Translations under genes and position numbers: made by a program
The notes under the pieces: generated by a model
What the model saw: only the letters and a program-made list of their open reading frames with translations
Told to the model about the DNA's origin: nothing
The model's database searches: none
Source of the DNA: a virus
Strand: one strand, 5' to 3'
DNA length: 37,936 bases
Virus record (IMG/VR): IMGVR_UViG_3300028610_001008
Span: 1-37,936 of that record
Shown: piece after piece, positions 6,955-37,936 of the stretch
Layout of the letters: every line of letters starts with the position of its first letter
How positions within the stretch are numbered: the stretch's first letter is position 1

Positions 6955-7139
6955 TCCGAAGAGCGTAAAATATTTATCTTCTCATCACAACTACGTTCAC
7001 ATTGAAGTTGAAGGATTTCTTTCTCAACCTCAATTAAAGAGTCATCAACTTCAAAAATCCTTTTGCTTAAAACTAAGAAGATAGTTATTAAGATACTTAA
7101 TACTACCAAGCTTTGAGCAAAAGGATTTTTTACGTCCAT
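6951..7139 (-). CDS. Small one-helix membrane protein, last gene of the late operon
   Basis: 62 aa. One membrane segment (SLVVLSILITIFLVL, residues about 10-25) is followed by a charged tail (EVDDSLIEVEKEILQLQCERSCDEK) that could form a coiled coil and contains two cysteines. It begins by a TGATG overlap with the upstream gene. The topology fits an i-spanin or holin accessory, but there is no overlapping lipoprotein partner. Its stop overlaps the end of the convergent plus-strand gene. Confidence 0.65.
   Translation of the reverse strand: MDVKNPFAQSLVVLSILITIFLVLSKRIFEVDDSLIEVEKEILQLQCERSCDEKINILRSSD
6957..6970 (+). repeat. 14-bp direct repeat, right copy
   Basis: Exact copy of 6761-6774. 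It lies in the C-terminal codons of the minus-strand membrane gene. Confidence 0.85.
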
Positions 7140-24906: not shown

Positions 24907-25194
24907 TTAGACTTCTCCTTTGTTTTCAGCTTGTTTTAATATTTCATCAGCAATCATCTTCGGTGGCCATTGCTGTATTGTTTTAAGAGTTAAAATAACT
25001 TCTCGTTTCCCGTCATTAACCAATGTCTTCATTAATCCATTAACTCCGTCAATACCGTTATTAAGTGTCGGAAGGTTATAATGACAAATCTGTTCTAGGA
25101 AATCCATCACCCTCTTACCCGGCTCCGTAGAAAACACAAACTCAATATCGGATTTTAATTGTTCTGCGTATTCTTCTTGAGTTTGTTTACTCAT
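24907..25194 (-). CDS. Bbp19-like small structural protein
   Basis: 95 aa. The core IEFVFSTEPGKRVMDFLEQICHYNLPT resembles the Bbp19 phage domain (F-TxxG--VL--L---C). Located between portal and scaffold, which is typical for the family. Its ATG overlaps the portal stop by 4 nt. Probably a head assembly accessory. Confidence 0.7.
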   Translation of the reverse strand: MSKQTQEEYAEQLKSDIEFVFSTEPGKRVMDFLEQICHYNLPTLNNGIDGVNGLMKTLVNDGKREVILTLKTIQQWPPKMIADEILKQAENKGEV

Positions 25195-26831
25195 CCCTGA
25201 GAAGCTTTCTCCGCCACTGCCGTGTCCTTCTCAGCTTTAGCGGATTTCTGTGCAACCTCCGCCCCCTGGTCCGCTGCCGCTAAAGCTTGTTGCATCTGTT
25301 GCATTTGAGCGCGTTTCTCACGTAACTCAGCGACCGTCTCGTCATCATTAAATATCTCCATTGGAATACCACGCGCTTGTGCGAAAACGTCAATCACCAT
25401 ATCAGGATTAATTTTATCTAAAACATTCGGGAACGCTGCCGCCATACTACCGGTTAATGCTAACGCATCTTGAATCGCCCCAATATCCGTGGCTTTTTGT
25501 GCTAATGCTAATGGTGAAATAAACTGAATCTCATAATTAGGGTTATCAATTAATTCACTCGGCATTGGCGGAAGCGCGCCCTTTCTTAAAGCAATAGATG
25601 TAATTCTATGTAAAACCTTCTCCAAAAACTCAGTTTGGTACCGGCCCACCGCGGGTCCTAATAAAGACATTTTCTCAGTTACACGCTCACGTACTTCCGG
25701 AACTGACATTTGTTTTGTTATATCACCAAACGCCATAAAGATATCATTAAACAATGCTTGCCGGATATCTTCACGATACAATTTCTGGAACTCAACCCCA
25801 ATCTGAGGATTCGCCCCGGTAAGTAGCGGTCGGACCGCTTGATCTCTTGTAATAGAAGCCCTACGGATATTTAACGCACCGGGATTAAGATTGAACTGAG
25901 TGATATATCCTTGATCAGGAACATCTAATGGCGGACGGATAACTGTTTGTGCACCGACGAGATTAGTCTCAACAATAGTGTTTAATGTTCGAGTATTCGG
26001 TAAAGAATCCATACATGGACTAAAACCAGTAGGATAATTTGCACGTTTGTAAAATCTATGTACACCAAAAGGGTCCTCTCTATACCCGCCTTCTCTTACG
26101 ACTTTCTGATTATTGTTTTGTATCCATACCGACATCCACGGCATATTCATCTTATCTTTTTTACCGGGATTATAAACACCTCGTCTCCCGACATAATGCA
26201 CGTACTCGGTTTTCTTAATGCTATACCTATTATTCTCTAAATCTTCTCTTACCTCCGTCGATAAATTGTCAAGCCCAAACTCTTGCTCTGCCTGTAACGC
26301 CGTATACTCATGCCGGATATAATACTCAGCTATTCTCTCCCGCGCATCCTCAACTAAAAATATGTCTCTAATAGGTAAAGTCTTAAACCTTACAACGTCC
26401 TCCTCGTCTTCTTCACTGAACATAACGGAGGTACCGTAAACGAAACTCGTTGCGTAAAAAGGGTCGACTTGCTGATCGAAGTTGCTACGGGAAAGGATAT
26501 AAAAAACTTCTTCTGCCGCATCATTCAACCAGCGTCGGACGTCATGGTTATGCTCTAATCTACTCTCACTAATCCCGAAATCAAACCAGCGACTATTTGG
26601 AGGAGTTAAATAAGAATGGACACCAGCAACAGCGACCTGAACAGCGTTAATTGACGTTGAATCCCAAAGGACCGTATGATCTAATTCATTTCCTAACGTA
26701 TAAGTTCTTTGAATATCATTTGAAGTAACATAGAAATAGTCATGCAGCGTCTGCATATACGTATGATGCGCGGCATAATCACCTTTTAATTTCTTATAAC
26801 CTGCAAGAATATCTATTGTACTTTTACTCAT
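25191..26831 (-). CDS. Portal (head-tail connector) protein
   Basis: 546 aa, about the length of T7 gp8. Motifs include NSRWFDFGISE, RRWLNDAAEEVFYILSRSNF, a central RVTEKMSLLGPAVGRYQTEFLEKVLHR and a Gln/Ala-rich C-terminal helix ending AEKASQG, all as expected for podovirus head-tail connector proteins (PF12236). It forms the dodecameric portal through which DNA is packaged. Overlaps both neighbours by 4 nt. Confidence 0.93.
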   Translation of the reverse strand: MSKSTIDILAGYKKLKGDYAAHHTYMQTLHDYFYVTSNDIQRTYTLGNELDHTVLWDSTSINAVQVAVAGVHSYLTPPNSRWFDFGISESRLEHNHDVRRWLNDAAEEVFYILSRSNFDQQVDPFYATSFVYGTSVMFSEEDEEDVVRFKTLPIRDIFLVEDARERIAEYYIRHEYTALQAEQEFGLDNLSTEVREDLENNRYSIKKTEYVHYVGRRGVYNPGKKDKMNMPWMSVWIQNNNQKVVREGGYREDPFGVHRFYKRANYPTGFSPCMDSLPNTRTLNTIVETNLVGAQTVIRPPLDVPDQGYITQFNLNPGALNIRRASITRDQAVRPLLTGANPQIGVEFQKLYREDIRQALFNDIFMAFGDITKQMSVPEVRERVTEKMSLLGPAVGRYQTEFLEKVLHRITSIALRKGALPPMPSELIDNPNYEIQFISPLALAQKATDIGAIQDALALTGSMAAAFPNVLDKINPDMVIDVFAQARGIPMEIFNDDETVAELREKRAQMQQMQQALAAADQGAEVAQKSAKAEKDTAVAEKASQG

Positions 26832-27259
26832 AATTTAGATATATAGTGAGCGTTTAAGAATTTGAATTTAAACCGTTTATATAAATGCCGTAACCCTTTA
26901 TAATTAGAAGCTAAAGCTAACGTCATAAATCTTACACCATGACTCTTTAAATCTTTTTGGACGTCTGTAACGAACCTTTTAACATAACGGGCATACTTCT
27001 TATCAACATAAAACAATGCTTCACTCCACATAGGCTCACCCGTCAACGTAATAGGAATAACGTCACCAGCTAAAACCCCAACTAACTCGCCCTCGTCCGT
27101 CTCTAACCCATAAGTCCAATTTTGATACTGTACCATACCAAACTTTAACTTTCCTTCGTCAACCTCAAACCCTGTCTTATCGTACATCCCAACTATATAT
27201 TCACGCGCTAACCGCCATACTTTATGACAGTCAGATAAATTAAGTTTTCTTATTCTCAT
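26828..27259 (-). CDS. GNAT-type acetyltransferase-like protein
   Basis: 143 aa. MRIRKLNLSDCHKVWRLAREYI, TDEGELVGVLAGDV, SEALFYVDKKYA and LALASNYKGLRHLYKRFKFKFLNAHYISKL follow the beta-alpha order of the GNAT fold. The acetyl-CoA loop (Q/RxxGxG/A) is weak. Such proteins commonly sit beside the portal in podoviruses; the substrate is unknown. Confidence 0.75.
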   Translation of the reverse strand: MRIRKLNLSDCHKVWRLAREYIVGMYDKTGFEVDEGKLKFGMVQYQNWTYGLETDEGELVGVLAGDVIPITLTGEPMWSEALFYVDKKYARYVKRFVTDVQKDLKSHGVRFMTLALASNYKGLRHLYKRFKFKFLNAHYISKL

Positions 27260-27471
27260 CCCAAAATAGTTTTCTTAGTCCCTGTCTCTTCAATTCCTTC
27301 CGGCCCAGTAAGAATAGTCTTTGATCTTTGTTTCTTCTTTAAGAATTCTTTCTCTTCCTTCTTAGCTTGAGCTGCCGCTTTCGATTCTAACTCCTCTGGA
27401 CTCGGTGTTGGTGGTGGCGTAGGAAGAGACGGGGTTGAAGGGGCTTTCGATCCACCAAATAAAAATGACAT
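27256..27471 (-). CDS. Small Pro-rich connector-associated protein
   Basis: 71 aa. MSFLFGGSKAPSTPSLPTPPPTPSPEELES, a charged helix, then RSKTILTGPEGIEETGTKKTILG. This combination of a MSFLFGG start, a proline stretch and the TILTGP ending is typical of small genes beside the podovirus portal. Function unknown, probably a virion or assembly factor. Confidence 0.82.
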   Translation of the reverse strand: MSFLFGGSKAPSTPSLPTPPPTPSPEELESKAAAQAKKEEKEFLKKKQRSKTILTGPEGIEETGTKKTILG

Positions 27472-27488
27472 ATTACTTCTCCTTAAAA

Positions 27489-28946
27489 TTAAACACCTAC
27501 ATAAATGCGATTAGTATTTTGTGCGTCATCATTATACTTAGCATTACAGAGCCTCATTGGTGACCTTGACATTATAGCATACTTCTGATTTGTCGAAACT
27601 CTTTTTATGATATTTTTTATATACCTAATCCCATGTATTGCCATCATTAACGCGTCTGCCGGATCAGGGGATTTTAAGCCTTTCTTTTTCATTTCTTCTT
27701 TTGTCACTATAGCTCGTCGACCATTTGACATGAACCTATACCTAATAGTCCTTAATGAGTCCATTACTATATCGTCTTTTATTTTTAATTTTCTATCTTG
27801 AATTAAGTCTTTAATATTAAAATAAGATTCTGCTTTTAAATTAGCGTACCTTAACTTATCTATATTTTCAACTGATCCCCCACGGAACTCAATTATGTTA
27901 CTTGATATTTTACTAAACAAAGATTTGTCTGTAGACTGAATCTCTTTTAATCTATCAAAAGAACCTATACCTAACCCGTCCCCATCTATAACCGTAACCG
28001 CGGGGCAGTACCGGGTAAGTAAATCGAAAATTCTACCCGTAGTCTCCATCGTATCTTTCTGTTTCCACATCTCACACGATATTACCGCCCAATGATCCGG
28101 CCCTTGATTCTCTAACAACACCGCCGCACTGCTATCTAACCCGTACCGCGCAATGTCAATCCCTAATATCCTATCGCCACTCCTATTTGAAAATATGAAC
28201 TCTGCATTCCTCGTTATAGCTTCATCCTCTTGCGTAATTAAATAGTCGTCGTCGTCCACATCATCAAAACTGTTCATTACATACTGAGCAAACTGATTCG
28301 GTGCGTCTTCCTCTTTAGCTCTTAAATCTTTAATAAAGTCGTCAGGTAAATGATCGGTATTAGCGAAACTATTCGCTGTAATACACTCGTACTCGCCATT
28401 AAGATACGCTTTAACTCCCCCCTCAACATTCAACGTCTCAATCTTACTCGCACGATTAATCCATCTTTGCCACATCCAGTTATGACCCTTAGCATTAGCA
28501 ATGACCGCCATCTGACGTAAACCTTTTACATTACGTCTTAACCTGTCTCTAAGGAAATCAAAGACGCTCGGGACTTCATACTCTTCCGCTTGCTCAATTC
28601 CTATAAAAGATAAGTTGATATTCTTAAGCACATTTATATCCACTACGTCCCCATGCCGGAACATTATCTTTGAACCGTTCTTAAACTCGTACTCTTTATC
28701 TTGACTATGGATACTCACATCGAAATACGTCTCGAAATCTTTTATTGTAGAGTCTCTAAGATCGGTATACTCTTTACGGACTATTAACGCTAACGCGTCC
28801 TCGTTCTCTTCACAATGTCGCCATGCTTTTAAAAGAAGCGCTAGCGTCTTACCAGTCCCTACAGCAGCGATCAGCGCCGGGAAGCGTTTTTCACTAAAGA
28901 CAAACCGGTCTTGATATCCTTGTAGCTTTACTTCGCCTAGACCCAT
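27489..28946 (-). CDS. terL: Terminase large subunit
   Basis: 485 aa. Walker A is AAVGTGKT at residues 27-34, Walker B LSFIGIEQAEE at about 112-122, and the nuclease site starts with GIDIARYG (Asp264), followed by VIDGDGLGIG and DPADAL. ATPase and RNase H-fold nuclease are both intact, so it can pump and cut DNA at the portal. It follows the small subunit and two Zn-knuckle genes. Confidence 0.95.
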   Translation of the reverse strand: MGLGEVKLQGYQDRFVFSEKRFPALIAAVGTGKTLALLLKAWRHCEENEDALALIVRKEYTDLRDSTIKDFETYFDVSIHSQDKEYEFKNGSKIMFRHGDVVDINVLKNINLSFIGIEQAEEYEVPSVFDFLRDRLRRNVKGLRQMAVIANAKGHNWMWQRWINRASKIETLNVEGGVKAYLNGEYECITANSFANTDHLPDDFIKDLRAKEEDAPNQFAQYVMNSFDDVDDDDYLITQEDEAITRNAEFIFSNRSGDRILGIDIARYGLDSSAAVLLENQGPDHWAVISCEMWKQKDTMETTGRIFDLLTRYCPAVTVIDGDGLGIGSFDRLKEIQSTDKSLFSKISSNIIEFRGGSVENIDKLRYANLKAESYFNIKDLIQDRKLKIKDDIVMDSLRTIRYRFMSNGRRAIVTKEEMKKKGLKSPDPADALMMAIHGIRYIKNIIKRVSTNQKYAIMSRSPMRLCNAKYNDDAQNTNRIYVGV

Positions 28947-28954
28947 GATTTTTT

Positions 28955-29164
28955 CTATTCTTTATTTGATGATAATAATAGTAATAAAGCTTGTATCGAA
29001 CGCTCGCATTTACTACATAAATCTATAAAAATATTCCCTTCCTGAGGAAGGGAACTTCTAGAAGTTATATCCATTTCTAAACCTGAATTCTTAAATAAAA
29101 CTTTTGCAGGTTCTTTTTTAAACATCTCATTACAAATGTCACACTTATGTTTTATTATTTTCAT
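28955..29164 (-). CDS. Small Zn-knuckle protein, paralogue of its neighbour
   Basis: 69 aa with CDIC near residue 9 and CSKC near residue 50 (IDLCSKCERSIQALL). The spacing and the IDLC..CE.SI pattern match the upstream gene, so this is a tandem duplicate. The start overlaps the previous stop. Position between the terminase subunits suggests a packaging accessory, but it could be regulatory. Confidence 0.75.
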   Translation of the reverse strand: MKIIKHKCDICNEMFKKEPAKVLFKNSGLEMDITSRSSLPQEGNIFIDLCSKCERSIQALLLLLSSNKE

Positions 29165-29427
29165 GTCTTAGACGCCTTTTCTATATTCTGCCAATGAGGA
29201 TCATCTTTTGGGATTCTTTTCGTTAAACAATCGAAAATAGATAACTCACACTCCTCACATAAATCTATTATCCTCTTCTCTCGATCGAAACCAGGAATAA
29301 AATCAAAGTATCTCTGTATGGATAATATCTTCCCGTCTTTACCTCTACAATAAACATATTTTAACTGCCCGTGATTTCCTTTAATTAACTCTTTACACAC
29401 ATCACACTGGGAATGGTCATACTTCAC
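29161..29427 (-). CDS. Small Zn-knuckle protein between the terminase genes
   Basis: 88 aa from a GTG whose GTGA overlaps the small terminase stop. CDVC near residue 8 and CEEC near 60 (IIDLCEECELSIFDCL) form a probable four-cysteine zinc site. Paralogue of the next gene and similar in layout to the early gene 6067-6270. No known family. Confidence 0.75.
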   Translation of the reverse strand: MKYDHSQCDVCKELIKGNHGQLKYVYCRGKDGKILSIQRYFDFIPGFDREKRIIDLCEECELSIFDCLTKRIPKDDPHWQNIEKASKT

Positions 29428-29918
29428 TCTTCACTCCTGGTTATCGTTAACGGCATCTTTTCTCTCTCTGGATTTCTATCTGGCTCCTTGCTCTCTTGCG
29501 CCTCGATATCTATCAGATCGACTTTCTGGGGTTTTAACGCAGGGGCATCTGCCCGGATGATTATAAGACCCTTGACTCCTCCGTCGCTGGGGGCGTTGGC
29601 GGATTTGTTATTTAAGTCGCCTCGCATTTCTAGGACCATCTTTAGGAAGGTTTGTCGTGCAGTCCAATTTGGTTTTGTATGCTCTGTGCCATTTCTATCA
29701 ATTACTAAGTCGTCGGCTTCACATCCGGACTTTAGTTTTAACGCTAAGTCTTTAACGGTAAGGCCGGACATTTCTAATAACTCTTTTACTTCGTCTTCAT
29801 CTGCTCTGATACCTCTTGCTTTTGATACGGCATATCCCGATAACCTCGCCGAGGCGTAGCCGCTATAGCCGAGCTTGCGGTAGTTTCTATACTTTTTCAT
29901 TTTTAGACTTATTGGCAT
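29424..29918 (-). CDS. terS: Terminase small subunit (probable)
   Basis: 164 aa from ATG 29918. A longer in-frame reading from 29945 would run through the -10 box, so it is rejected. The N-terminal part (LGYSGYASARLSGYAVSKARG) looks like the helix-turn-helix of small terminases, followed by helices and an acidic, Pro-rich tail. First gene of the late operon; its ATG coincides with the predicted transcription start and has no ribosome site. The assignment rests on pattern and its place upstream of terL. Confidence 0.72.
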   Translation of the reverse strand: MPISLKMKKYRNYRKLGYSGYASARLSGYAVSKARGIRADEDEVKELLEMSGLTVKDLALKLKSGCEADDLVIDRNGTEHTKPNWTARQTFLKMVLEMRGDLNNKSANAPSDGGVKGLIIIRADAPALKPQKVDLIDIEAQESKEPDRNPEREKMPLTITRSEE

Positions 29919-29924
29919 ATTACT

Positions 29925-29953
29925 ATTATATTGTTTGTTAGTCAAATTGTCAA
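29925..29953 (-). promoter_or_regulatory. Late operon promoter (leaderless)
   Basis: TTGACA (29953-29948), 17-bp spacer, TATAAT (29930-29925): a perfect sigma70 consensus. The extended -35 reads TTGACAATTTGAC. The A of ATG 29918 is 7 nt after the -10 box, so the terminase mRNA should begin with its start codon. Confidence 0.88.
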
Positions 29954-29964
29954 TAGGAGTATAT

Positions 29965-30038
29965 AAAAAAACCCTCTATGACTAGTCCCAAAAGGGAGCA
30001 CGGCTCGACGCCGATTATTATCATAGAGGATCTATTAT
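29965..30038 (-). ncRNA. Small structured RNA of about 74 nt with its own promoter and terminator
   Basis: Predicted start at A 30038, 7 nt after a consensus -10 box. The RNA contains an outer 9-bp stem (CCTCTATGA at 30029-30021 in the transcript, TCATAGAGG at 29981-29973) that encloses two hairpins: CGGC-GTCGA-GCCG and TCCC-TTTT-GGGA. The outer stem is followed by seven U, so it also acts as terminator. The result is a compact three-way-junction-like RNA immediately before the terminase operon. No convincing open reading frame lies within it. Confidence 0.72.
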
Positions 30039-30044
30039 GGTAAT

Positions 30045-30073
30045 AATATAATTTATAATTATGAGATTGTCAA
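30045..30073 (-). promoter_or_regulatory. Promoter of the small structured RNA
   Basis: TTGACA (30073-30068), 17-bp spacer, TATATT (30050-30045) on the minus strand. Strong sigma70 match. The expected start is about 30038. Confidence 0.82.
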
Positions 30074-30126
30074 ATGGTAAATTTAGTTAGAGAGATAGGG
30101 ACCCAAAAGTACCTTACCTTACACAC

Positions 30127-30212
30127 ACACTATGGGTTCCCTTTATATATATATAAGGTGCAGGGGTTCCAAAAACCGGGTCTGTACCAAGGGAAAAGGG
30201 GACCCATAGTGT
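30127..30212. repeat. Long inverted repeat with 18-nt arms
   Basis: ACACTATGGGTTCCCTTT (30127-30144) and its complement at 30195-30212 match at 17 of 18 positions, around a 50-bp spacer with a TATATATATATA tract and further GGGTTCC-like fragments. Could form a cruciform or a protein-binding array in the control region. No gene is supported here. Confidence 0.85.
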
Positions 30213-30379
30213 ACAGCGTGGCACGAATATGCTATCCTATTGCCATTATTATTGGGCTTTCACAACCGTCATATAATCAGCATTATGTTAACTACGTTTT
30301 AAGTCATTGATATCATTAGACTTATGATATCCCATTTCTAAGAATATACGCCAAATACTATATATAGTGATTAAATGCC

Positions 30380-30407
30380 TGATTAATGAGCATATGCTCA
30401 TTAATCA
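30380..30407. promoter_or_regulatory. Perfect 28-bp palindrome
   Basis: Half-site TGATTAATGAGCAT followed directly by its reverse complement, with NdeI-like centre CATATG. Such a long uninterrupted palindrome next to iterons suggests a dimeric regulator or initiator binding site. Confidence 0.85.
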
Positions 30408-30410
30408 ATT

Positions 30411-30460
30411 TGTCATGGTGTGTCAGGGTATGTCTGGGTATGTCATAGTATGTCAGGGTA
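30411..30460. repeat. Five 10-bp iterons
   Basis: Five contiguous units TGTCATGGTG, TGTCAGGGTA, TGTCTGGGTA, TGTCATAGTA, TGTCAGGGTA. The exact 10-bp period puts every copy on the same face of the helix, as in initiator-binding iterons. Confidence 0.88.
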
Positions 30461-30514
30461 AAATCTATCAAACACACTGGCCTTTTTAGCACTTTTTCAA
30501 TATTCGTCATGTGT

Positions 30515-30568
30515 GTAGTTAACAATAACCGTGGTTATTGTTAACTACAAATGGTTATTGTTAACTAC
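30515..30568. repeat. Three copies of a 16-mer, one inverted
   Basis: GTAGTTAACAATAACC at 30515-30530 is the complement of GGTTATTGTTAACTAC at 30533-30548 and again at 30553-30568. The first two form a palindrome with a 2-bp centre. A shortened fourth copy (GTTAACTACGTTTT) lies at 30287-30300. Confidence 0.88.
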
Positions 30569-30681
30569 GTTTTTATAATATTTGTTTTAATTTAAATATA
30601 TTTTTGATAATTTAACAAATACAGATAAAATAGGGAAAATAGGCCAATTTTGCCCATTTTTAGTGTTCACTTTTTTAAACG

Positions 30682-30813
30682 GGACAGTTCACTTTTTTGA
30701 ACTGTCCACCAATACTACTATATATACCAACGACTTACAAGAAGAGGGGACAGTTCACTTTTCTGAACTGTCCACCTGGAAGTATATGTATACCAACGAC
30801 TTACATCAAAAAA
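30682..30813. repeat. 66-bp tandem repeat, each with an inverted repeat
   Basis: Two copies with an exact 66-bp period. Each begins GGACAGTTCA-6 nt-TGAACTGTCC (30682-30707 and 30748-30773) and ends with TATACCAACGACTTACA (30723-30739 and 30789-30805). The 10-bp arms could be regulator operators. A partial unit GTTCACTTTTTT precedes at 30665. Confidence 0.87.
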
Positions 30814-30820
30814 GGGCCAA

Positions 30821-30939
30821 GTGATACAGATGAAAGTGAGCAAACTTTCTATAGAATGGGAATACTACCTACTTTATACCCTATTCTTACCCAAAATCGC
30901 TAATTAGTTTATATACATACAATGTCCTATCTGTATCAC
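30821..30939. repeat. Distant inverted repeat
   Basis: GTGATACAGAT at 30821-30831 and ATCTGTATCAC at 30929-30939 are perfect complements separated by 97 bp that contain further imperfect pairing (AGAATGGGAATA against TACCCTATTCT). A looping site or a long cruciform; no gene seen. Confidence 0.7.
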
Positions 30940-30984
30940 CTAAAAGGTTAACTAGGGGGTTAAGAAAGAATAAGTTGTTTTATT

Positions 30985-31250
30985 GTGTCCGCTCCTCCCC
31001 ATCTCCGCGCGCCCTCAACTCCAGTGCGACCCCCTTCCTTATATATCCCTCCCATCATATCTTCATCCCACACCCCATCTAGGAACCCCCATAACACCCC
31101 CTCACATTAATCCTAAGCGACGATCTCTAACTAAGCCATATCCTACTACCCCTGAGTTTATGTGTAGCCACTAGTCCGCGCGCCCTCCCTTCTCATGCCC
31201 CCATGGCCCCCCTCCACTCACTATATCATCACCCCTAAAAACTATCTCAA
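30985..31250. other. C-rich, G-poor tract without genes
   Basis: The plus strand is rich in C runs (CCCCC, CCCCCC) and very poor in G, unlike the AT-rich remainder. It contains an exact 13-bp repeat, TCCGCGCGCCCTC, at 31004-31016 and 31175-31187. The complementary strand has clustered G runs that might fold as quadruplexes. No coding signal is convincing. Confidence 0.75.
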
Positions 31251-31258
31251 CAAATACC

Positions 31259-31287
31259 TTGACAACTTTACAAATTGACACTATACT
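31259..31287 (+). promoter_or_regulatory. Early operon promoter (leaderless)
   Basis: TTGACA (31259-31264), 17-bp spacer, TATACT (31282-31287), with extended -35 TTGACAACTTTAC. ATG 31294 is 7 nt beyond the -10 box. Two more TTGACA-like hexamers overlap it (31276, 31289). Confidence 0.86.
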
Positions 31288-31293
31288 TTTGAC

Positions 31294-31392
31294 ATGACCA
31301 AATCAATCACCACTATTAACAAGTTGTTAAAGGTTGTGGATAACCATAACGAAAGGATGGAGAGAAATGAAAGAGCGAGCTATAGTTATTAG
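31294..31392 (+). CDS. Leaderless 32-aa early peptide
   Basis: 32 aa, beginning MTKSITTINKLLKVVDNHNE and ending ERASYSY. The start codon coincides with the predicted transcription start and there is no ribosome site. It overlaps the next gene by 26 nt. The charged helix could be a functional peptide or just a leader that loads ribosomes for the downstream genes. It is first in the early operon. Confidence 0.5.
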   Translation: MTKSITTINKLLKVVDNHNERMERNERASYSY

Positions 31393-31573
31393 AGGAAAAA
31401 CAATCTCAAGAGTAACCTATGACTTTGAGACTGAGATATTACAAGGCCAGAATTTATCTTGTCGCAGAATTATATCCCATAACGAATATAAGAATATGAA
31501 AGATCAAACAATCAAAGTTTCAAAGGAATGCGGGTATAAACTAACTTTTGAGATGGAAGGAGAACGGGAATGA
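31367..31573 (+). CDS. Early hypothetical protein
   Basis: 68 aa from ATG 31367, with GGAG upstream. KERAIVIRGKTISRVTYDFETEILQGQNLSCRRIISHNEYKNM... is a mixed alpha/beta charged protein of no recognised family. It overlaps the leaderless peptide and the next gene (ATGA). Confidence 0.65.
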   Translation: MKERAIVIRGKTISRVTYDFETEILQGQNLSCRRIISHNEYKNMKDQTIKVSKECGYKLTFEMEGERE

Positions 31574-31851
31574 ACATCAAAATACACAGTATGGCAATGA
31601 TAAGACAACCAAAGAGAGAGAAAGAGATAGCGTTAGTTGACGTTTGTTTTAATGATTTTCTTATCATTAAAGGTTTCAGGTTATGTATGAGTGGAGACTT
31701 CATGTTTTTAGATTTCCCTAAAAACTTACCAAACGAAAAGATATGGTGGGACACGATAGAATTTACTGAACAATGTGTTATGAAAACTATCGTAGAATTA
31801 GTTATCTCAAAGTACCGTAGTTTAGAGGAGAAAAGAAATGAAAATGACTGA
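31570..31851 (+). CDS. SpoVG-family-like protein
   Basis: 93 aa. IKIHSMAMIRQPKREKEIALVDVCFNDFLIIKGFRLCMSGDFMFLDFPKNLPNEKIWWDTIEF...VISKYRSLEEK resembles SpoVG (PF04026): the -A-V-V-F-DF-I-G-R-----FM-FP pattern and the closing Y. SpoVG is a small DNA- or RNA-binding regulator, also encoded by phages. The match is by eye and the exact identity is moderate. Start ATG with GAAGGAGA upstream. Confidence 0.6.
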   Translation: MNIKIHSMAMIRQPKREKEIALVDVCFNDFLIIKGFRLCMSGDFMFLDFPKNLPNEKIWWDTIEFTEQCVMKTIVELVISKYRSLEEKRNEND

Positions 31852-32200
31852 AAAAGCTAAAGAAATATTCAGAACGGCAATACTTATTCATAAAAGATCA
31901 GCGTTTAATCCCTCGGAAGTTTTAAAAGTAGCTGAGCGTATATCTAGTTTAGATCACGCTAAAGAGATTAAAGCGGATCATATGGCGGAAGCGATAAACT
32001 ATTATGGCGATATAGATGATTATATTAAAGAGTTTGTTGGTCAAAATCTAGGGGAGGAGTATATGGATAGAAGAGACTACAAATCACTTATTGCTTTCCC
32101 TGATAGCCCGGAAGTTTTAAGATTAACTGAAATTTATGGCCCTGATATCAAGAAAAGATTAATAGAGGTTATAAATACTTTTATAGAGGAGAAAAAATAA
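31838..32200 (+). CDS. Helical protein resembling the ChlI/ComM C-terminal domain
   Basis: 120 aa. The stretch SAFNPSEVLKVAERISSLDHAKEIKADHMAEAINYYG resembles the C-terminal helical domain of magnesium chelatase ChlI and ComM-type ATPases (-A--I-DL---I---H--EA--Y). No ATPase domain is present, so it is a stand-alone lid. The remainder is helical and charged. It could modulate a host AAA+ protein; this is inference. Confidence 0.6.
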   Translation: MKMTEKAKEIFRTAILIHKRSAFNPSEVLKVAERISSLDHAKEIKADHMAEAINYYGDIDDYIKEFVGQNLGEEYMDRRDYKSLIAFPDSPEVLRLTEIYGPDIKKRLIEVINTFIEEKK

Positions 32201-32427
32201 TGTTTAGTCCCGTATTTAAAGAAGATTCCCCTTGGATGGCTATTGGGGGAATTGTAATAATGTTTAGTTTCATAGGTATTTTAAGTTATATTCTTGGAAG
32301 TCCATCCCCTAAACCACAATCAGAAATAATTGATAGAAGTTGCCGTAACGACTGCTCGTCGTGGGGTACGATAGATTATGATTGTGTAATTAAGTGTGTT
32401 GAGTATAAGAAGGAGAAAACAAAATGA
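32200..32427 (+). CDS. Small membrane protein with cysteine-rich tail
   Basis: 75 aa. One membrane span (WMAIGGIVIMFSFIGILSYIL) and a tail with four Cys (RSCRNDCSSW...DCVIKC), which suggests disulfides or metal binding. The start shares one base with the previous stop. Early expression suggests a host-takeover or exclusion role. Confidence 0.65.
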   Translation: MFSPVFKEDSPWMAIGGIVIMFSFIGILSYILGSPSPKPQSEIIDRSCRNDCSSWGTIDYDCVIKCVEYKKEKTK

Positions 32428-32897
32428 GAAAAATCAAGTTTAGAGCGTGGGACATTATTCAAAAGACTATGCATTATGGATCAAAAAAACCTTATATGTA
32501 TTTAACAAATTCAGAACGTTTAATTGGAATTGGTTGTGATTTAGATCCTTCCTTATATCACGATACAAATAGATCGTTTGATAAAGAAATAATTCTTATG
32601 CAATACACCGGCCTTAAAGACAAGAATGGAAAAGAGATTTATGAGGGGGATATAGTTGTAAAAAAAGGTTATATCTGGTTTGACAATAATAAACCTAATT
32701 ATAGAGGTGTTGTTGAGTGGATATTTTGTCAATGGCAAGTTATGACTTATTCTATAAACAAAGAAAAAAGTGGAATGTCAGATGGAATTAATAGAGGGTT
32801 AAATGAATATGGGTGGGAAGATGAAAAAAAATCTGATTGGGAAGTCATTGGAAATAAATATGAGAATCCAGATTTATTAAAAAAGGAGAAAAAATGA
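32424..32897 (+). CDS. YopX family protein
   Basis: 157 aa. KFRAWDIIQKTMHYG at the start and LMQYTGLKDKNGKEIYEGDIV in the middle are the diagnostic YopX (PF09643) motifs. A phage-associated family of unknown role, occurring with early gene clusters. Overlaps both neighbours by 4 nt. Confidence 0.92.
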   Translation: MRKIKFRAWDIIQKTMHYGSKKPYMYLTNSERLIGIGCDLDPSLYHDTNRSFDKEIILMQYTGLKDKNGKEIYEGDIVVKKGYIWFDNNKPNYRGVVEWIFCQWQVMTYSINKEKSGMSDGINRGLNEYGWEDEKKSDWEVIGNKYENPDLLKKEKK

Positions 32898-33106
32898 TGA
32901 ATAAGCATAAACTAACACCACAATACCAATTCGTTTTAGGAGTGGATGAAGTTCGTTACACAATATTTGCTGACACTTTTGAACAGGCAAAGCTAAAATT
33001 CTTTACAATTTTCGGGGGAGAGAAAGGATTTCTTGATACTTATCACGGAACGAATGAAAGCGCACCAATGCTTTTATCAATCATTAGTGTGAGTGAAATA
33101 TTTTAA
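32894..33106 (+). CDS. Early hypothetical protein
   Basis: 70 aa, mixed alpha/beta (YQFVLGVDEVRYTIFADTFEQAKLKFFTIFGGEKG). No recognised motif. AAGGAG lies upstream and the ATG overlaps the YopX stop. Confidence 0.66.
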   Translation: MMNKHKLTPQYQFVLGVDEVRYTIFADTFEQAKLKFFTIFGGEKGFLDTYHGTNESAPMLLSIISVSEIF

Positions 33107-33121
33107 AAAGGAGTTAATCAA

Positions 33122-33295
33122 ATGAAAGTAAACCACCTAACCCCGGTCTCAATTGACCACATCTATATCACCCGGGTAGTTTTAGATGACCACGGCCAAG
33201 AGAAGGTCCTTACTACAATTAATGTAGAGCATTTCAATAAAAACGTAATGGTCCGTAAAAACCGGTATGTAAAGATGGAGGATAAAGTGAGATGA
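33122..33295 (+). CDS. Small early hypothetical protein
   Basis: 57 aa starting MKVNHLTPVSIDHIYITRVV, rich in beta strands (EKVLTTINVEHFNKNVMVRKNRYVKM). AAGGAG lies 9 nt upstream. Stop and next start overlap (GATGA). GC content looks higher in its first half than in neighbours, with CCCGG repeats. Family unknown. Confidence 0.62.
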   Translation: MKVNHLTPVSIDHIYITRVVLDDHGQEKVLTTINVEHFNKNVMVRKNRYVKMEDKVR

Positions 33296-33615
33296 AAAAA
33301 AAATCTCTAAAGATTATTCCCTATTTTGAAGACTGGTGTTTAATAAAAGGCATTGTGGAAAGAATGTCAAATTTATCAGAAGAAAAAAACCTTGATTTTA
33401 ATTCTGAATCCATAACAGATGATTTAATTATGTGTCATTTGAATGGATGTGAATTAGATTTAAAGAAATTATCAGAATCCCCTGATTTCAGTTTCATGCA
33501 CGACATAATTTGTATAGAAAAATATCTAAATAGAGAAACAGGAAAACTAGAAAATTGTTTTCCTCCTGGATGTTCAGTATTAGGAAAGGAGATAGAAAAT
33601 GAAAAAATCAATTAA
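33292..33615 (+). CDS. Early hypothetical protein
   Basis: 107 aa. Helical, acidic, with scattered Cys (DDLIMCHLNGCELDLKKLSESPDFSFMHDIICIEKYL). No motif recognised. Its end overlaps the next gene by 17 nt. Confidence 0.63.
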   Translation: MKKKSLKIIPYFEDWCLIKGIVERMSNLSEEKNLDFNSESITDDLIMCHLNGCELDLKKLSESPDFSFMHDIICIEKYLNRETGKLENCFPPGCSVLGKEIENEKIN

Positions 33616-34048
33616 CATCGGACTTACGATTTCATTAATTATTTTAACAACAACTTTCATAATCCATTTAATTCAAGATGATTCTCAAAAGAAAGAAGTA
33701 CTAAGAGATCCACTAAACGGTTGGCTACAAATCCAAGTTGAGGTTGCAATAGAAGAAACTAAATTATGGAAAGAGGCATATATGACACTTAAAAAAGAAA
33801 AAGATAAGCCCCCGGTAATCACGGTTGGTAATACTGATAAAAATTCAGATATTCCGTATTTCACTAAAGATCAGGGTAAAGAAGACCTCCCTCTTACCTT
33901 AGCTGATACGGACGACCCTAATTGGGATGGCCTATATTTCAAGAAAGACCCGAATATATACACCTTCCCTGAATACGCAGACATGCTAAAGGCGAAAAAT
34001 CTAAAGATTAAATTCTGTAAATATTGTGGAGAGGAGATAACGAAATGA
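33599..34048 (+). CDS. Membrane-anchored protein with C-terminal CxxC knuckle
   Basis: 149 aa. Residues 5-26 (INIGLTISLIILTTTFIIHLI) form a signal anchor, followed by a charged helix and a Pro/Asp-rich region; the C-terminus IKFCKYCGEEITK is a zinc-knuckle half. The next gene has the same layout (N-terminal helix, final FCQLCEE), so the two may be diverged relatives. Role unknown. Confidence 0.65.
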   Translation: MKKSINIGLTISLIILTTTFIIHLIQDDSQKKEVLRDPLNGWLQIQVEVAIEETKLWKEAYMTLKKEKDKPPVITVGNTDKNSDIPYFTKDQGKEDLPLTLADTDDPNWDGLYFKKDPNIYTFPEYADMLKAKNLKIKFCKYCGEEITK

Positions 34049-34302
34049 AACTTTTTAGTGCTTATCATTATTTTACTTTTATTATGGCTTTTATTTTAGG
34101 TTTTGTATTTTGGATGATTGTAGATCCCTACGATTCATCTTTAAATAAACAAGCCTCCCTTCCCTCCCTACAATTTGGGTGTGGAAACTCCGGCTGGGGT
34201 AGTAGTGACGGGATTAACTGGAAGCTCATAATTAATGGTAGAGCCGTTACCGAAGATGAGCAGGTTAGATTCTGTCAACTTTGTGAGGAGAATAAAAAAT
34301 GA
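34045..34302 (+). CDS. Membrane-anchored protein with C-terminal CxxC
   Basis: 85 aa from ATG 34045, which overlaps the previous stop (AAATGA). An N-terminal span (HYFTFIMAFILGFVFWMIV), a Gly/Ser/Trp-rich middle (FGCGNSGWGSSDGINW) and the end VRFCQLCEENKK. Similar layout to the upstream gene. Unknown function. Confidence 0.62.
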   Translation: MKLFSAYHYFTFIMAFILGFVFWMIVDPYDSSLNKQASLPSLQFGCGNSGWGSSDGINWKLIINGRAVTEDEQVRFCQLCEENKK

Positions 34303-34847
34303 AAAAAACATTCGATTCTGAACCAGCAATAATGATCTTAATAATCATCCTATCACTTGCTATCGGTCTACATATTGGCGTTCATGACGAGATTTACGAT
34401 AGTCATTATGAGCGGATGAAATCTAAAGAAGAGAGGGAAAAGTTTTTAAAGAGTATGGACAATGATATGGATCTATGGCAAGAAGGCCTAAGATTGGAAA
34501 GAGAGCTCGGGCTCCATATCCCTTTTATGTTGCCTAGTCCCGAAGAATCCGATACAGACTCCCGTTTAACGATCCCTACCCCAAAAGTCATCTGTCAAGA
34601 ATACTGGTTAAAGAGTGGGTTGATAGTTAAGTGCCGGGGAGCTTTTAGGACTGAGAACTTTAAGACTATCACCATTAAGGAAGGCCCGGAAGTACCAGAG
34701 AATCTCTGGCAAGGCCTAAAAAATTCCGGTTGGTATCTCGATATAAACGGGAATAAAGAATACGTCGTTAATGGTAACTTTGTGACGTTTGACGTTGTAG
34801 GTTTTAATAGTGAGAGGTTGCCGCCTTATATAGGAGAGGAAAAATGA
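34299..34847 (+). CDS. Membrane-anchored early protein
   Basis: 182 aa. N-terminal membrane helix (IMILIIILSLAIGLHIGV), then a charged helix (ERMKSKEEREKFLKSMDNDMDLW) and a beta-rich C-terminal half (VICQEYWLKSGLIVKCRGAF...YLDINGNKEYVVNGNFVTF). No family recognised. Overlaps both neighbours. Confidence 0.64.
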   Translation: MKKTFDSEPAIMILIIILSLAIGLHIGVHDEIYDSHYERMKSKEEREKFLKSMDNDMDLWQEGLRLERELGLHIPFMLPSPEESDTDSRLTIPTPKVICQEYWLKSGLIVKCRGAFRTENFKTITIKEGPEVPENLWQGLKNSGWYLDINGNKEYVVNGNFVTFDVVGFNSERLPPYIGEEK

Positions 34848-35089
34848 CACATAATCTTAAAATAGATAAAGTTTTTTTAGATGCTAAATTAGCAGGCGAT
34901 AAACTTTTTGAAGTAAGGTGCAATGATCGTGGTTTTCAGAAAGGCGATATAATCGAATATCGAGAATATTATGGTGTCAAATATGCAAAGATATATGAAT
35001 TTGTAATAACTTACGTCACAAATTACATGCAAAAGGAAAACTATGTGGTGTTTGGTGAGAAGAGAATCTTAGAGGAGATTAAAAAATGA
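34844..35089 (+). CDS. DUF3850 / ASCH-like small protein
   Basis: 81 aa. HNLKIDKVFLDAKLAGDKLFEVRCNDRGFQKGDIIEYREYYG fits DUF3850: the LKI, the K-FE-R-NDRGF-GD core, and a closing VVFGEKRILEE. This fold is related to PUA/ASCH domains that bind RNA or modified nucleotides. Phage copies are common in early regions. Confidence 0.82.
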   Translation: MTHNLKIDKVFLDAKLAGDKLFEVRCNDRGFQKGDIIEYREYYGVKYAKIYEFVITYVTNYMQKENYVVFGEKRILEEIKK

Positions 35090-35265
35090 AAATATCACTA
35101 TCACATGTCTACCAAGATTACGCTAACAATTTTCAAATAGGAGAAACAGAATATTTACTTTCATATGAAGAAGCAAAAGCTATGGAGATATTCATAAAGA
35201 AAGTCAAAGATTATGATCGCATTAAACAGATAATAAACGCTTATGTGGGGGAGAACAAATCTTGA
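35086..35265 (+). CDS. Small early hypothetical protein
   Basis: 59 aa starting MKISLSHVYQDYANNFQIGE. One beta strand and a C-terminal helix (EEAKAMEIFIKKVKDYDRIKQIINAYV). Start overlaps the DUF3850 stop (ATGA). AGAGGAG precedes it. Family unknown. Confidence 0.62.
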   Translation: MKISLSHVYQDYANNFQIGETEYLLSYEEAKAMEIFIKKVKDYDRIKQIINAYVGENKS

Positions 35266-35276
35266 AGGAGGGGGAG

Positions 35277-35462
35277 ATGATTAAAAGAAAATTTATTTCT
35301 GTTAATGACTTGCACTTGATATATAGCCTAAGTGAGCATTATATTTCTAGGTGTAGAGAAGTAGAAATCACAGAAGAGGAAATTGATAAAGTGGATAAAG
35401 CCTTTAAAGAATTTTATAAAATTCAAGACTTCTTAAAAAAGAGGTTTAGGGGAGAAAAATGA
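35277..35462 (+). CDS. Small early hypothetical protein
   Basis: 61 aa from ATG 35277, preceded by GGAGGGGG; an earlier in-frame TTG is less likely. Basic start (MIKRKFISVNDLHLIYSL) then helical and charged. No motif. Confidence 0.62.
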   Translation: MIKRKFISVNDLHLIYSLSEHYISRCREVEITEEEIDKVDKAFKEFYKIQDFLKKRFRGEK

Positions 35463-35683
35463 AAAGACTAATTAGAAAGTTTATAGGAGTAATTGCCATA
35501 ATTAATGTAGTGGCTTTTTTATCTGCGATTTCTGGATTTATTGGAAGTAAAGACATAAAATTTTCTTTAGAAGTTTTTAAAAGTGTTTTATATCTAGGTT
35601 TAACATTGTTTTTAGGGTACATCTTATTAACTCTCATATTAAATTTTATGGAGGATAAAAAAGAAGGAGGTGATAAAGAATAA
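35459..35683 (+). CDS. Two-helix small membrane protein
   Basis: 74 aa. Two membrane spans (FIGVIAIINVVAFLSAISGFIG and FKSVLYLGLTLFLGYILLTLIL) joined by a short charged loop. Early expression and lack of enzyme motif suggest envelope remodelling or superinfection exclusion, not proven. The ATG overlaps the previous stop. Confidence 0.66.
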   Translation: MKRLIRKFIGVIAIINVVAFLSAISGFIGSKDIKFSLEVFKSVLYLGLTLFLGYILLTLILNFMEDKKEGGDKE

Positions 35684-35898
35684 TGGAATTATTTATATCA
35701 TTCCTTGTACATACGGCAATTGCTTCAGTAGGCATATACGTCGGTTATCGTTTTGCTTATTATAAAAGTTTGTCTCAAATGAAAGAATTAATAGATAAAC
35801 TTAAGCAATTTAATGAAAAATGTCAATTAGATACCAAAATAATTCGTGCTTTAAATGAGAAATTAAAGGAGGACTGTCAAAATGAAAAACAAAATTGA
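35683..35898 (+). CDS. Membrane protein with coiled-coil tail
   Basis: 71 aa. One N-terminal membrane span (LFISFLVHTAIASVGIYVGYRFAY) and a helical tail (SQMKELIDKLKQFNEKCQLDTKIIRALNEKLKEDC). Starts one base into the previous stop (TAATGG). Function unknown. Confidence 0.64.
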   Translation: MELFISFLVHTAIASVGIYVGYRFAYYKSLSQMKELIDKLKQFNEKCQLDTKIIRALNEKLKEDCQNEKQN

Positions 35899-36142
35899 AA
35901 TCATTGTTGTTAAGAGGGTCCCGGGAGGGACAGGATTTAGTTGGGATTTAATTTTAAAGATTGAAGTAATTATTAATGAAGTTATGGTTATTAAGAAAAT
36001 TCTTCTTTATGAAAAAGACGAGAAAGTAACAATAGAATTTTCTCATGAAGGATCAAAACCATCTAGTCTTTTTGACTTTGGTAAGTTGAAAGAAGAGATT
36101 ATTGTTGAGTATAAGAGGATGAAAGAATTGGGGGAGATTTAA
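35882..36142 (+). CDS. Early hypothetical protein
   Basis: 86 aa, beta strands then helix (IEIIVVKRVPGGTGFSWDLILKIEVIINEVMVIKK...LKEEIIVEYKRMKELG). Overlaps the previous gene by 17 nt, with AAAGGAGG upstream. No family recognised. Confidence 0.64.
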   Translation: MKNKIEIIVVKRVPGGTGFSWDLILKIEVIINEVMVIKKILLYEKDEKVTIEFSHEGSKPSSLFDFGKLKEEIIVEYKRMKELGEI

Positions 36143-36170
36143 TAGACATATCACAAAAGGGGGAGAAACC

Positions 36171-36419
36171 ATGTCAGATAAAAAAACTTATTTTATGATA
36201 GCAGCAATTCTTGTATTCTTTATTTGTTTAGCTCTTTATAAAAGTGCGACTCGGATTACTGCGTTGGAATATATTATAAGTGAAGAGATAGAGTGGAATA
36301 TAGCAGGAATTGAAGATAAAATAAGAAAACTTGAAGGGGAGGTGCGAGGAAATATATATACTGATTATCCAGGTCTTTTACATGAAGTAGAAGAAATTCA
36401 GTATAAACTAGGAATGTAA
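36171..36419 (+). CDS. Membrane protein with helical tail
   Basis: 82 aa. TM segment FMIAAILVFFICLALY near the N-terminus, then two helices (ALEYIISEEIEWNIAGIEDKIRKLEGEV). GGGGGAG upstream. Last gene before the RNA locus at 36451. Confidence 0.64.
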   Translation: MSDKKTYFMIAAILVFFICLALYKSATRITALEYIISEEIEWNIAGIEDKIRKLEGEVRGNIYTDYPGLLHEVEEIQYKLGM

Positions 36420-36450
36420 TAAACAATAAACTATTTGATTAAAGTATTAA

Positions 36451-36479
36451 TTGACTATTTTACTAATTTATACTAATAT
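36451..36479 (+). promoter_or_regulatory. Promoter of the tRNA-like RNA
   Basis: TTGACT (36451-36456), 17-bp spacer, TAATAT (36474-36479). Extended -35 TTGACTATTTTAC matches the phage promoter family at 11 of 13 positions against the one at 1974. Predicted start about 36486. Confidence 0.65.
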
Positions 36480-36487
36480 TAATTAAA

Positions 36488-36571
36488 TTGAGGCTTGTGG
36501 CGATTGGATCGCAAGTAACCCCGGGAAGGGTCTATGCTAGACAAGCAGGTTCGAATCCTGTCAAGCCTCAA
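36488..36571 (+). tRNA. tRNA-like RNA, anticodon unresolved
   Basis: A 10-bp closing stem TTGAGGCTTG/CAAGCCTCAA, a D-arm (GCGA-TTGGA-TCGC, with GG), and a canonical T-arm (GCAGG-TTCGAAT-CCTGT) directly joined to the closing stem. Between them lie ACCC-CGGGAA-GGGT and a CTA/TAG mini-hairpin. There is no normal 7-nt anticodon loop with U33, and no encoded CCA. It may be a divergent tRNA, a decayed one, or a tRNA mimic. About 84 nt, with its own promoter. Confidence 0.6.
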
Positions 36572-36591
36572 ACTCAAATACATTTTATAAA

Positions 36592-36750
36592 ATGCTAACC
36601 CATATAATAGTAACAATAATTTTCTTAGTTGCTTGTTGGAATGCCGACCATAATCTACCTAAGACTTTTGATGGTTATGAAGACGGGCATTGTATGGAGA
36701 GGCGGTTATGGATATATTTAGTTTTATATATTTTATATTGGACGGTTTAA
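36592..36750 (+). CDS. Small membrane or lipoprotein-like protein
   Basis: 52 aa. N-terminal hydrophobic stretch ending LVAC (THIIVTIIFLVAC), which resembles a lipobox, and a second hydrophobic segment (LWIYLVLYILYWTV). No clear ribosome site, so the gene is only moderately supported. It fills the gap after the tRNA-like RNA. Confidence 0.4.
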   Translation: MLTHIIVTIIFLVACWNADHNLPKTFDGYEDGHCMERRLWIYLVLYILYWTV

Positions 36751-36754
36751 TGAA

Positions 36755-36898
36755 GTGAAATACCGGGGATATGAAATCAAATCTAATAATAATATCTACG
36801 AAGCCTATTGGTGGAATATAAAGTATTTTGAGGATAAAGATTTATGGGGTTTAAAGAAGATTCTTGATAAGACTTATGAAAGGAGAGAAAATGGATAA
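36755..36898 (+). CDS. Small basic hypothetical protein
   Basis: 47 aa from GTG 36755 (VKYRGYEIKSNNNIYEAYWWN). Aromatic and charged, ending YERRENG. Its end overlaps the next start by 8 nt. No strong ribosome site. Confidence 0.45.
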   Translation: MKYRGYEIKSNNNIYEAYWWNIKYFEDKDLWGLKKILDKTYERRENG

Positions 36899-37064
36899 AA
36901 AATTGGTCTTCTCTGTTATAAATAATTTAGATGATTTAATTTCTATCGAAGAAAAAAGTCATCAATTTTATTCACCAATAGATATGTGGGAGCTTATAAG
37001 AGAGAACAGAAAGAAGATTAATGAGATTATTGATTATTTGAATCAAGAATGCAAGAAATCATAA
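36891..37064 (+). CDS. Small helical early protein
   Basis: 57 aa from ATG 36891, preceded by AAAGGAGAG. Helical and charged throughout (FSVINNLDDLISIEEKSHQFYSPIDMWELIRENRKKINEII). Ends in overlap with the next gene. Confidence 0.62.
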   Translation: MDKKLVFSVINNLDDLISIEEKSHQFYSPIDMWELIRENRKKINEIIDYLNQECKKS

Positions 37065-37270
37065 ACAAACTAGATAAATATTCACAACATAAAACATGGT
37101 TAAAGTTAAAGCGTGATAACCCTAACCACCGGGAGTGGCGGGACTCTTTAAACAAAACATTTATTAAACCTTTAATTCAAGAATTACGGGGTTATGATAA
37201 GGAATCTTTACCAAGAAAGATATTTTATTTAAGTAATAAGTTTAAGGCTCAGAAAGTAGGTGTGATATGA
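37049..37270 (+). CDS. Small basic early protein
   Basis: 73 aa, basic (HKTWLKLKRDNPNHREWRDSLNKTFIKPLIQELRGYDKE). Overlaps both neighbours (16 nt and 4 nt). Potential nucleic-acid-binding helix, no family assigned. Confidence 0.6.
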   Translation: MQEIINKLDKYSQHKTWLKLKRDNPNHREWRDSLNKTFIKPLIQELRGYDKESLPRKIFYLSNKFKAQKVGVI

Positions 37271-37482
37271 GTGCTGAGAAGTTTGTTATTTTACAATTAC
37301 AGACTATTGAAGATGATCTTCTAAACTTAAAAAATGAAAAAGTTATGATTAAAGAATCAACTTTTGTAAGGAAAATGAGCCGGCAAGATAAAATATATTG
37401 TAATTCTTTATTATCAATGACCAAGATAATAAAGCAAGTAATAGAAAAATTAGAGGATATAGAGAAAGGGAATAAAATATGA
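37267..37482 (+). CDS. Small helical early protein
   Basis: 71 aa, mainly helices (EKFVILQLQTIEDDLLNLKNEKVMIKE, SLLSMTKIIKQVIEKLEDIEKGN). Possibly coiled-coil. ATGA overlap with both neighbours. Unknown function. Confidence 0.62.
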   Translation: MSAEKFVILQLQTIEDDLLNLKNEKVMIKESTFVRKMSRQDKIYCNSLLSMTKIIKQVIEKLEDIEKGNKI

Positions 37483-37688
37483 AAGATGATCCTTCAAAAG
37501 CATATCTTGGTGATGGAGTATACGCTTCATTTGATGGTTGCGGAATATCGCTTTATGCCAATGACCCTTTAAATCCTACAGATGAAATTTATCTAGAACC
37601 TGAGGTTATGTCGGGTCTAATTAAATTTAATGAAGAGATTAAGGGCCGAGTATGGTTTAGTAAAAAACCAAATCTAGAATTCAAATAA
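37479..37688 (+). CDS. Conserved phage protein (GDGVY...FDG type)
   Basis: 69 aa. YLGDGVYASFDGCGISLYANDPLNPTDEIYLEPEVMSGLIKF follows a pattern widespread in phage early genes (LGDGVYA-FDG---L------IYLEP-V---L). The role of this family is not known. Overlaps the previous gene; the next ATG shares its last base. Confidence 0.8.
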   Translation: MKDDPSKAYLGDGVYASFDGCGISLYANDPLNPTDEIYLEPEVMSGLIKFNEEIKGRVWFSKKPNLEFK

Positions 37689-37849
37689 TGACACATATAG
37701 AACGACAAAGAATCTTAGATCAGCATGACGGTCAGAGCTTAGCGTTCTTAGATGAATATCTTTGGTTAGATAGGGAGGAATATCATGAAAGGAATAATGA
37801 ATATAAGGGCGAAAAGAGTATCGTTCATTCTCAAAAGAGAACAATATGA
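37688..37849 (+). CDS. Small early hypothetical protein
   Basis: 53 aa starting MTHIERQRILDQHDGQSLAF, then an aromatic acidic stretch and a Lys/Ser-rich end. It overlaps the ribbon-helix-helix gene by 65 nt in another frame. Translation is coupled by TAATG. The long overlap lowers confidence in its C-terminal end. Confidence 0.5.
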   Translation: MTHIERQRILDQHDGQSLAFLDEYLWLDREEYHERNNEYKGEKSIVHSQKRTI

Positions 37850-37936
37850 ATACATAAAAGCTAGGGCGGATAGAGAACGGGATTCTATCTCGGCTATTCT
37901 TAATGACATAATTGATGATTATATGATAAACAACGG
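37785..37936 (+). CDS. Ribbon-helix-helix protein, 5' part (continues at 145-166)
   Basis: The proper start, ATG 37785 with AGGGAGGA upstream, adds four residues (MKGI) before the internal ATG at 37797. The window end interrupts it; after closure, the remaining codons are 145-166. See the entry at 5-166 for fold and role. Confidence 0.75.
   Translation, partial: MKGIMNIRAKRVSFILKREQYEYIKARADRERDSISAILNDIIDDYMINN
37793..37936. repeat. Terminal direct repeat, right copy
   Basis: Identical to 1-144; shows circular closure of the assembly. Confidence 0.97.

Follow-up and report, generated by a model that had tools for sequence, protein, structure and literature searches.

The divergent intergenic region of a podovirus-type phage genome carries, on the minus strand and in this order, a near-consensus promoter, a 9-bp stem enclosing two hairpins and a tract of seven U residues, a combination which is beyond chance expectation. 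The element is probably an orphan phage sRNA gene, judging from its sequence organisation, and is best explained as a stand-alone, self-terminating small RNA gene of the phage lineage whose product would act in trans, a tentative reading that we place just short of an even chance.

The window, i.e. the whole stretch of 37,936 nucleotides analysed here, is an IMG/VR virus record with an exact 144-bp end repeat (bases 1-144 are identical to 37793-37936), which closes the genome at ~37.8 kb; the record is probably a complete genome. For its head and tail the phage has podovirus-type genes like those of the Pelagibacter phage HTVC010P, encoding the portal (PF12236), the capsid (PF19821), tail proteins and internal virion proteins; for replication it has genes of the primase-helicase type, namely a prim-pol/VapE protein and a helicase of the SNF2 type. 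Late genes are read leftward from 29918 and early genes rightward from about 31290, separated by ~1.4 kb of intergenic DNA dense with dyads, with repeats of 10 bp in tandem and with a direct repeat of 66 bp. The early region also holds a tRNA-Pro (GGG) gene at 36490-36570, and two small consecutive minus-strand genes of 88 and 69 amino acids, with zinc-ribbon-like CxxC...CxxC pairs, occupy 28955-29427 between the first late gene and the terminase large subunit (TerL). The features relevant to the present analysis are as follows.

27489 to 28946, minus strand: TerL (Pfam PF04466, E 2.7e-9; phrog_2, E 2.4e-32)
29424 to 29918, minus strand: first late gene, probable start ATG at 29918; small terminase by position only
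29925 to 29953, minus strand: promoter P2 of the late (terminase/head) operon, TTGACA-17-TATAAT, 12/12 by sequence match
29965 to 29971, minus strand: U7 tract of the predicted intrinsic terminator, from the sequence
29966 to 30038, minus strand: predicted ~73-nt RNA, folding into an outer stem with two hairpins
29973 to 30029, minus strand: outer 9-bp stem CCTCTATGA/TCATAGAGG, arms 39 nt apart
29986 to 29997, minus strand: predicted inner hairpin 2, TCCC-TTTT-GGGA, not significant when the interior is shuffled
30001 to 30013, minus strand: predicted inner hairpin 1, CGGC-GTCGA-GCCG, not significant when the interior is shuffled
30045 to 30073, minus strand: promoter P1, TTGACA-17-TATATT, 11/12 by sequence match

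The consensus promoter, the 9-bp outer stem, the two hairpins and the U7 tract noticed in the sequence-only reading are thus all present on the minus strand. The boxes of P1 (TTGACA at 30073-30068 and TATATT at 30050-30045, 17 nt apart) predict a transcription start at ~30038, and the 5' arm CCTCTATGA (30029-30021) pairs with the 3' arm TCATAGAGG (29981-29973) in a stem that could extend into the U-tract. We infer that the RNA is made, as well as its fold and its ends, the start being set ~7 nt past the -10 box and the end within U7; its action in trans and its partner are guesses. A 24-codon frame, MIIIGVEPCSLLGLVIEGFFIYSY, starting in the 5' arm was rejected as a gene, as it has no ribosome-binding site and crosses the terminator.

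The ~73-nt RNA has a folding energy of about -29 kcal/mol, and the 81-nt stretch 29960-30040 folds at -29.6 kcal/mol (z = -5.0), a value equalled by none of 200 shuffles. A strict screen, in which a promoter matching at least 11/12 positions had to be followed within 40 nt by a stem of at least 9 bp and a U-tract, found the combination in none of 400 shuffled genomes and none of 4000 shuffled intergenic regions; a laxer earlier screen (60 nt) gave one combination in 100 shuffled genomes. Promoters of at least 11/12 are themselves rare, with 0.09 expected in shuffles of the intergenic region, and of the promoter matches in 25000-37936 the top three (29953, 30073 and 31259) fall within this single intergenic region between divergent operons. 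These statistics back the proposal that a small RNA is served by a promoter of its own, and support the claim that the outer stem serves at once as the closing stem of the RNA and as a predicted intrinsic terminator. They also bear on whether the arrangement arose by chance and has no function, as the lack of conservation anywhere, the richness of the region in inverted repeats and the frequency of stems of at least 9 bp with a T-run (on average 1.25 per shuffled genome, and several in the real one) could suggest; the complete absence of the combination with a near-consensus promoter from both sets of shuffles makes such an origin hardly credible. One of the other stems with a T-run, at 7058-7125, lies within a small open frame of the opposite strand.

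The interior of the element gives a different result. The 40 nt between the arms alone have z = -1.34, with 22 of 200 shuffles folding equally well, so the inner hairpins show no significance over base composition and the three-way junction is a prediction and not a finding. Of the three-way-junction RNA that had been proposed, the transcription unit is therefore upheld (0/400 and 0/4000), while a selected junction shape is not (22/200 for the interior).

The element had been described as directly abutting the small terminase gene; the 12/12 promoter P2 (29953-29925) in fact lies in between, its -35 box (29953-29948) beginning 11 nt past the end of U7 at 29965. The probable ATG of the first late gene (29918) coincides with the predicted start site of P2, whose -10 box ends 7 nt earlier, and the gene has no Shine-Dalgarno sequence, while many other genes of the phage have one (AGGAG/GGAGAA); its mRNA is predicted to be leaderless. 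The TTG start at 29945 in the list of open reading frames falls within P2. The gene is called the small terminase from its position and from a weak similarity (E = 0.045) to the gene occupying that slot in a close relative (L003, see below); neither Pfam nor PHROGs gives it a name. In that relative the late promoter is nearly as close to the gene start.

The orientation of P1 into the late operon, with a terminator between the promoter and the genes, is also what an attenuated late-operon leader would require. In the bacteriophage lambda, the pR'-tR' layout places a promoter, a short leader and a terminator ahead of the late genes, and the element resembles it in having a promoter, a short RNA and a terminator directed toward late genes, the lambda 6S RNA being ~194 nt as compared with the ~73 nt predicted here. 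By analogy, P1 would be constitutive and transcription would stop at the stem and U7 until a later phage factor let polymerase pass on to the late genes; the short RNA would be an abandoned leader. Overlapping the terminator's 5' arm is a weak hairpin of the nascent transcript, AUAGA-UCC-UCUAU (-1.6 kcal/mol), which a factor might stabilise as an antiterminator; however, no self-contained antiterminator of competing strength was found, and Pfam and PHROGs name no antiterminator among the genes searched, which covered the small early genes in part. The phage also differs from lambda in having no Q-like gene identified and in carrying a second, perfect promoter past the terminator: where read-through alone would otherwise reach the late genes, a P2 of perfect consensus and predicted activity would make it unnecessary. 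An attenuated leader is therefore regarded as unlikely, though, like the attenuator shielding the late promoter that the sequence-only reading had named, it is kept as a rival.

The short distance between U7 and P2 is suggestive of another arrangement, in which the RNA would be a by-product of a promoter-interference or insulator device. A polymerase from P1 halted at U7 would form a paused complex covering and delaying P2, the 11 nt from the U7 end (29965) to the -35 box (29953-29948) being a distance that an elongating polymerase would cover with its downstream footprint; or else the terminator would keep stray transcription arising in the repeat-rich intergenic region from reaching P2. Inner hairpins without significance are as expected of a filler RNA body. 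A plain insulator, however, needs no promoter of its own, whereas P1 is an 11/12 match, and the close relative L003 has no such device. This explanation is considered improbable to the same degree as the attenuated leader. Between a stand-alone RNA that may act in trans, which we put a little under even, and an attenuated leader or a polymerase hold near P2, each clearly less probable, the sequence cannot decide.

The region upstream of the element, 30074-31258, is a probable origin or regulatory region, as suggested by its repeats. Tandem TGTCNNGGTA-like 10-mers lie at 30411-30460, and a direct repeat of 66 bp, with GGACAGTTCA dyads, spans 30681-30805; perfect dyads occupy 30380-30407 and 30514-30568, and the sequence is rich in C from about 30990 to 31240. 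A long imperfect hairpin with 18-nt arms (94%) and a second hairpin within it lies at 30127-30212, and 30090-30225 folds well on the plus strand (z = -4.2). The element could thus be linked to replication, with transcription from P1 opening or priming the adjacent putative origin, with its iterons and dyads, and the terminator limiting the transcript. The tandem 10-bp repeats, the 66-bp repeats and the perfect dyads of 30074-31258, together with a DnaA-type box, TGTGGATAA, at 31335, are in its favour; P1, however, is directed away from the repeats, and such a role is judged very unlikely.

The position before the terminase operon and the predicted three-way-junction-like fold had also invited comparison with the packaging RNA (pRNA) of phi29-type phages, and the element does share with it the absence of coding capacity, a podovirus-type phage as carrier and the proximity to packaging genes. 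The comparison is not supported by the type of terminase and replication, the length or the Rfam searches. TerL is of the ordinary type and retains ATPase and nuclease motifs, as read from its sequence (GIDIARYGLD, VIDGDGLG and SPDPADAL for the nuclease), and replication is of the prim-pol/VapE type, whereas the phi29 type has an ATPase with a vestigial nuclease fold and protein-primed replication. The phi29 pRNA measures 174/120 nt, i.e. a ~174-nt RNA with a 120-nt core (PMC11476376), and lies near the genome end, in contrast to the ~73 nt delimited here by promoter and terminator; the present locus is, by the coordinates of the record, inside a closed 37.8-kb genome, between divergent operons. 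The Rfam pRNA covariance model gave no match to the element at the gathering threshold and none at E<=5, a result which alone is not decisive since pRNAs are strongly divergent in sequence, with 12% similarity (PMC5340915). Relatives with the same portal family have no such RNA. A packaging RNA like that of phi29 thus has the slightest probability of all, and a compact, terminator-closed RNA that binds a phage protein and has a structural or regulatory role in packaging or in a late-gene switch, belonging to a podovirus group other than that of phi29, is highly doubtful as well.

Homologues of the element were not found by any of the searches performed. Rfam gave no matches at the gathering threshold, and what it returned at E<=5 was sub-threshold throughout, namely eukaryotic RNAs and a fragment of a lysine riboswitch; BLASTN against phages and plasmids returned only chance matches of 18-32 nt; and a pattern scan of IMG/VR for the stem arms returned a single GC-rich chance match (L050). 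A descriptor combining promoter and terminator found no second example of the layout in 59 sequences (538 kb), among them the window itself and L001, a partial copy of the window. A promoter followed by a plain hairpin 4 nt past its -10 box, in L054, was set aside as a different arrangement.

Relatives of the phage were sought with TerL, the first late gene, the portal and the capsid in viral contigs and with the portal in genome contigs, the latter search taking in 189 genomes from the family to which the rumen MAG with the contig L051 belongs. The only close relative found was L003 (TerL 62% and portal 60% identical), followed by L051 with a portal identity of 39%. The 540 nt upstream of the late genes of L003 have neither a terminator nor a similar RNA, and five T never occur in a row; neither the stem nor the hairpins are kept, whereas the sequence-only reading had envisaged, as evidence against itself, relatives keeping the stem alone. 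The stretch contains instead a late promoter, in which TTGACA is followed by TATAAT at 19 nt or by TAATAT at 16 nt, and an inverted CCTAACGTTAGG element. At 120-280 of L003, seven CGTCGA cores occur in 150 bp, several of them at the tips of small hairpins with differing stems and with two DnaA-type boxes beside them, so that the region looks like an origin or partition-type site; a tie between these hairpins and the GUCGA loop of the element was set aside, as the window has the hexamer no more often than chance would give. No such RNA was found in L051 or in the upstream regions of three Pelagibacter phages. HTVC010P (L075) and HTVC203P (L076) have in common, just before the terminase operon, the motif TATATATA...GGACT(C/T)GAGGAC(T/A)CCCTTA, which may be a site for packaging or a promoter. 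It may be that only the lineage of this phage has the element, or that relatives carrying it are so far unsampled; the lack of homologues in Rfam, phages, plasmids and IMG/VR and the absence from L003 count against a small RNA gene.

The small RNA gene is nevertheless the simplest reading. The intergenic region upstream of the element has no gene and no strong minus-strand promoter, so P1 is the only evident client of the terminator, and the operon downstream is equipped with a perfect promoter, which would make a leader role unnecessary. Host sigma70 RNA polymerase would initiate at P1, with the predicted +1 at about 30038, and produce a compact ~73-nt RNA whose 5' and 3' ends would pair; as the closing stem and U7 would form the intrinsic terminator, RNA body and terminator would be one structure, with the inner hairpins reducing the effective loop and helping the arms to meet. 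The finished RNA would most likely be regulatory in trans, binding host or phage mRNA or a protein, with the late genes transcribed separately from P2.

OOP RNA of lambda has its own promoter and terminator, as predicted for the element. The element differs from OOP, sar and c4 in having no antisense overlap with a phage gene and no sequence or Rfam relation to them, and in that the closing stem of its RNA is itself the terminator. The predicted ~73 nt falls within the size range of known phage sRNAs (sar 68/69, StxS 74, c4 77 and OOP 77 nt), and lambda OOP, P22 sar and P1/P7 c4 similarly lie between phage genes (PMC12197685). Complementarity beyond chance, of the kind shown by antisense RNAs such as OOP, sar and c4, was not found, the longest perfect complement elsewhere being 11 nt, and predicted pairing with the starts of phage mRNAs is at chance level, the best duplex being equalled in 18 of 100 shuffles. 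The longest unpaired run of the RNA is 6 nt (AAUAAU), which offers no obvious base-pairing seed and counts against a base-pairing sRNA.

The element is of modest interest until transcription is evident, and would gain greater weight only with a role in late-gene control or packaging. If transcribed, it would add an orphan sRNA from an undersampled phage group to the short list of phage sRNAs, and would mark a position where the timing of late-gene transcription could be set.
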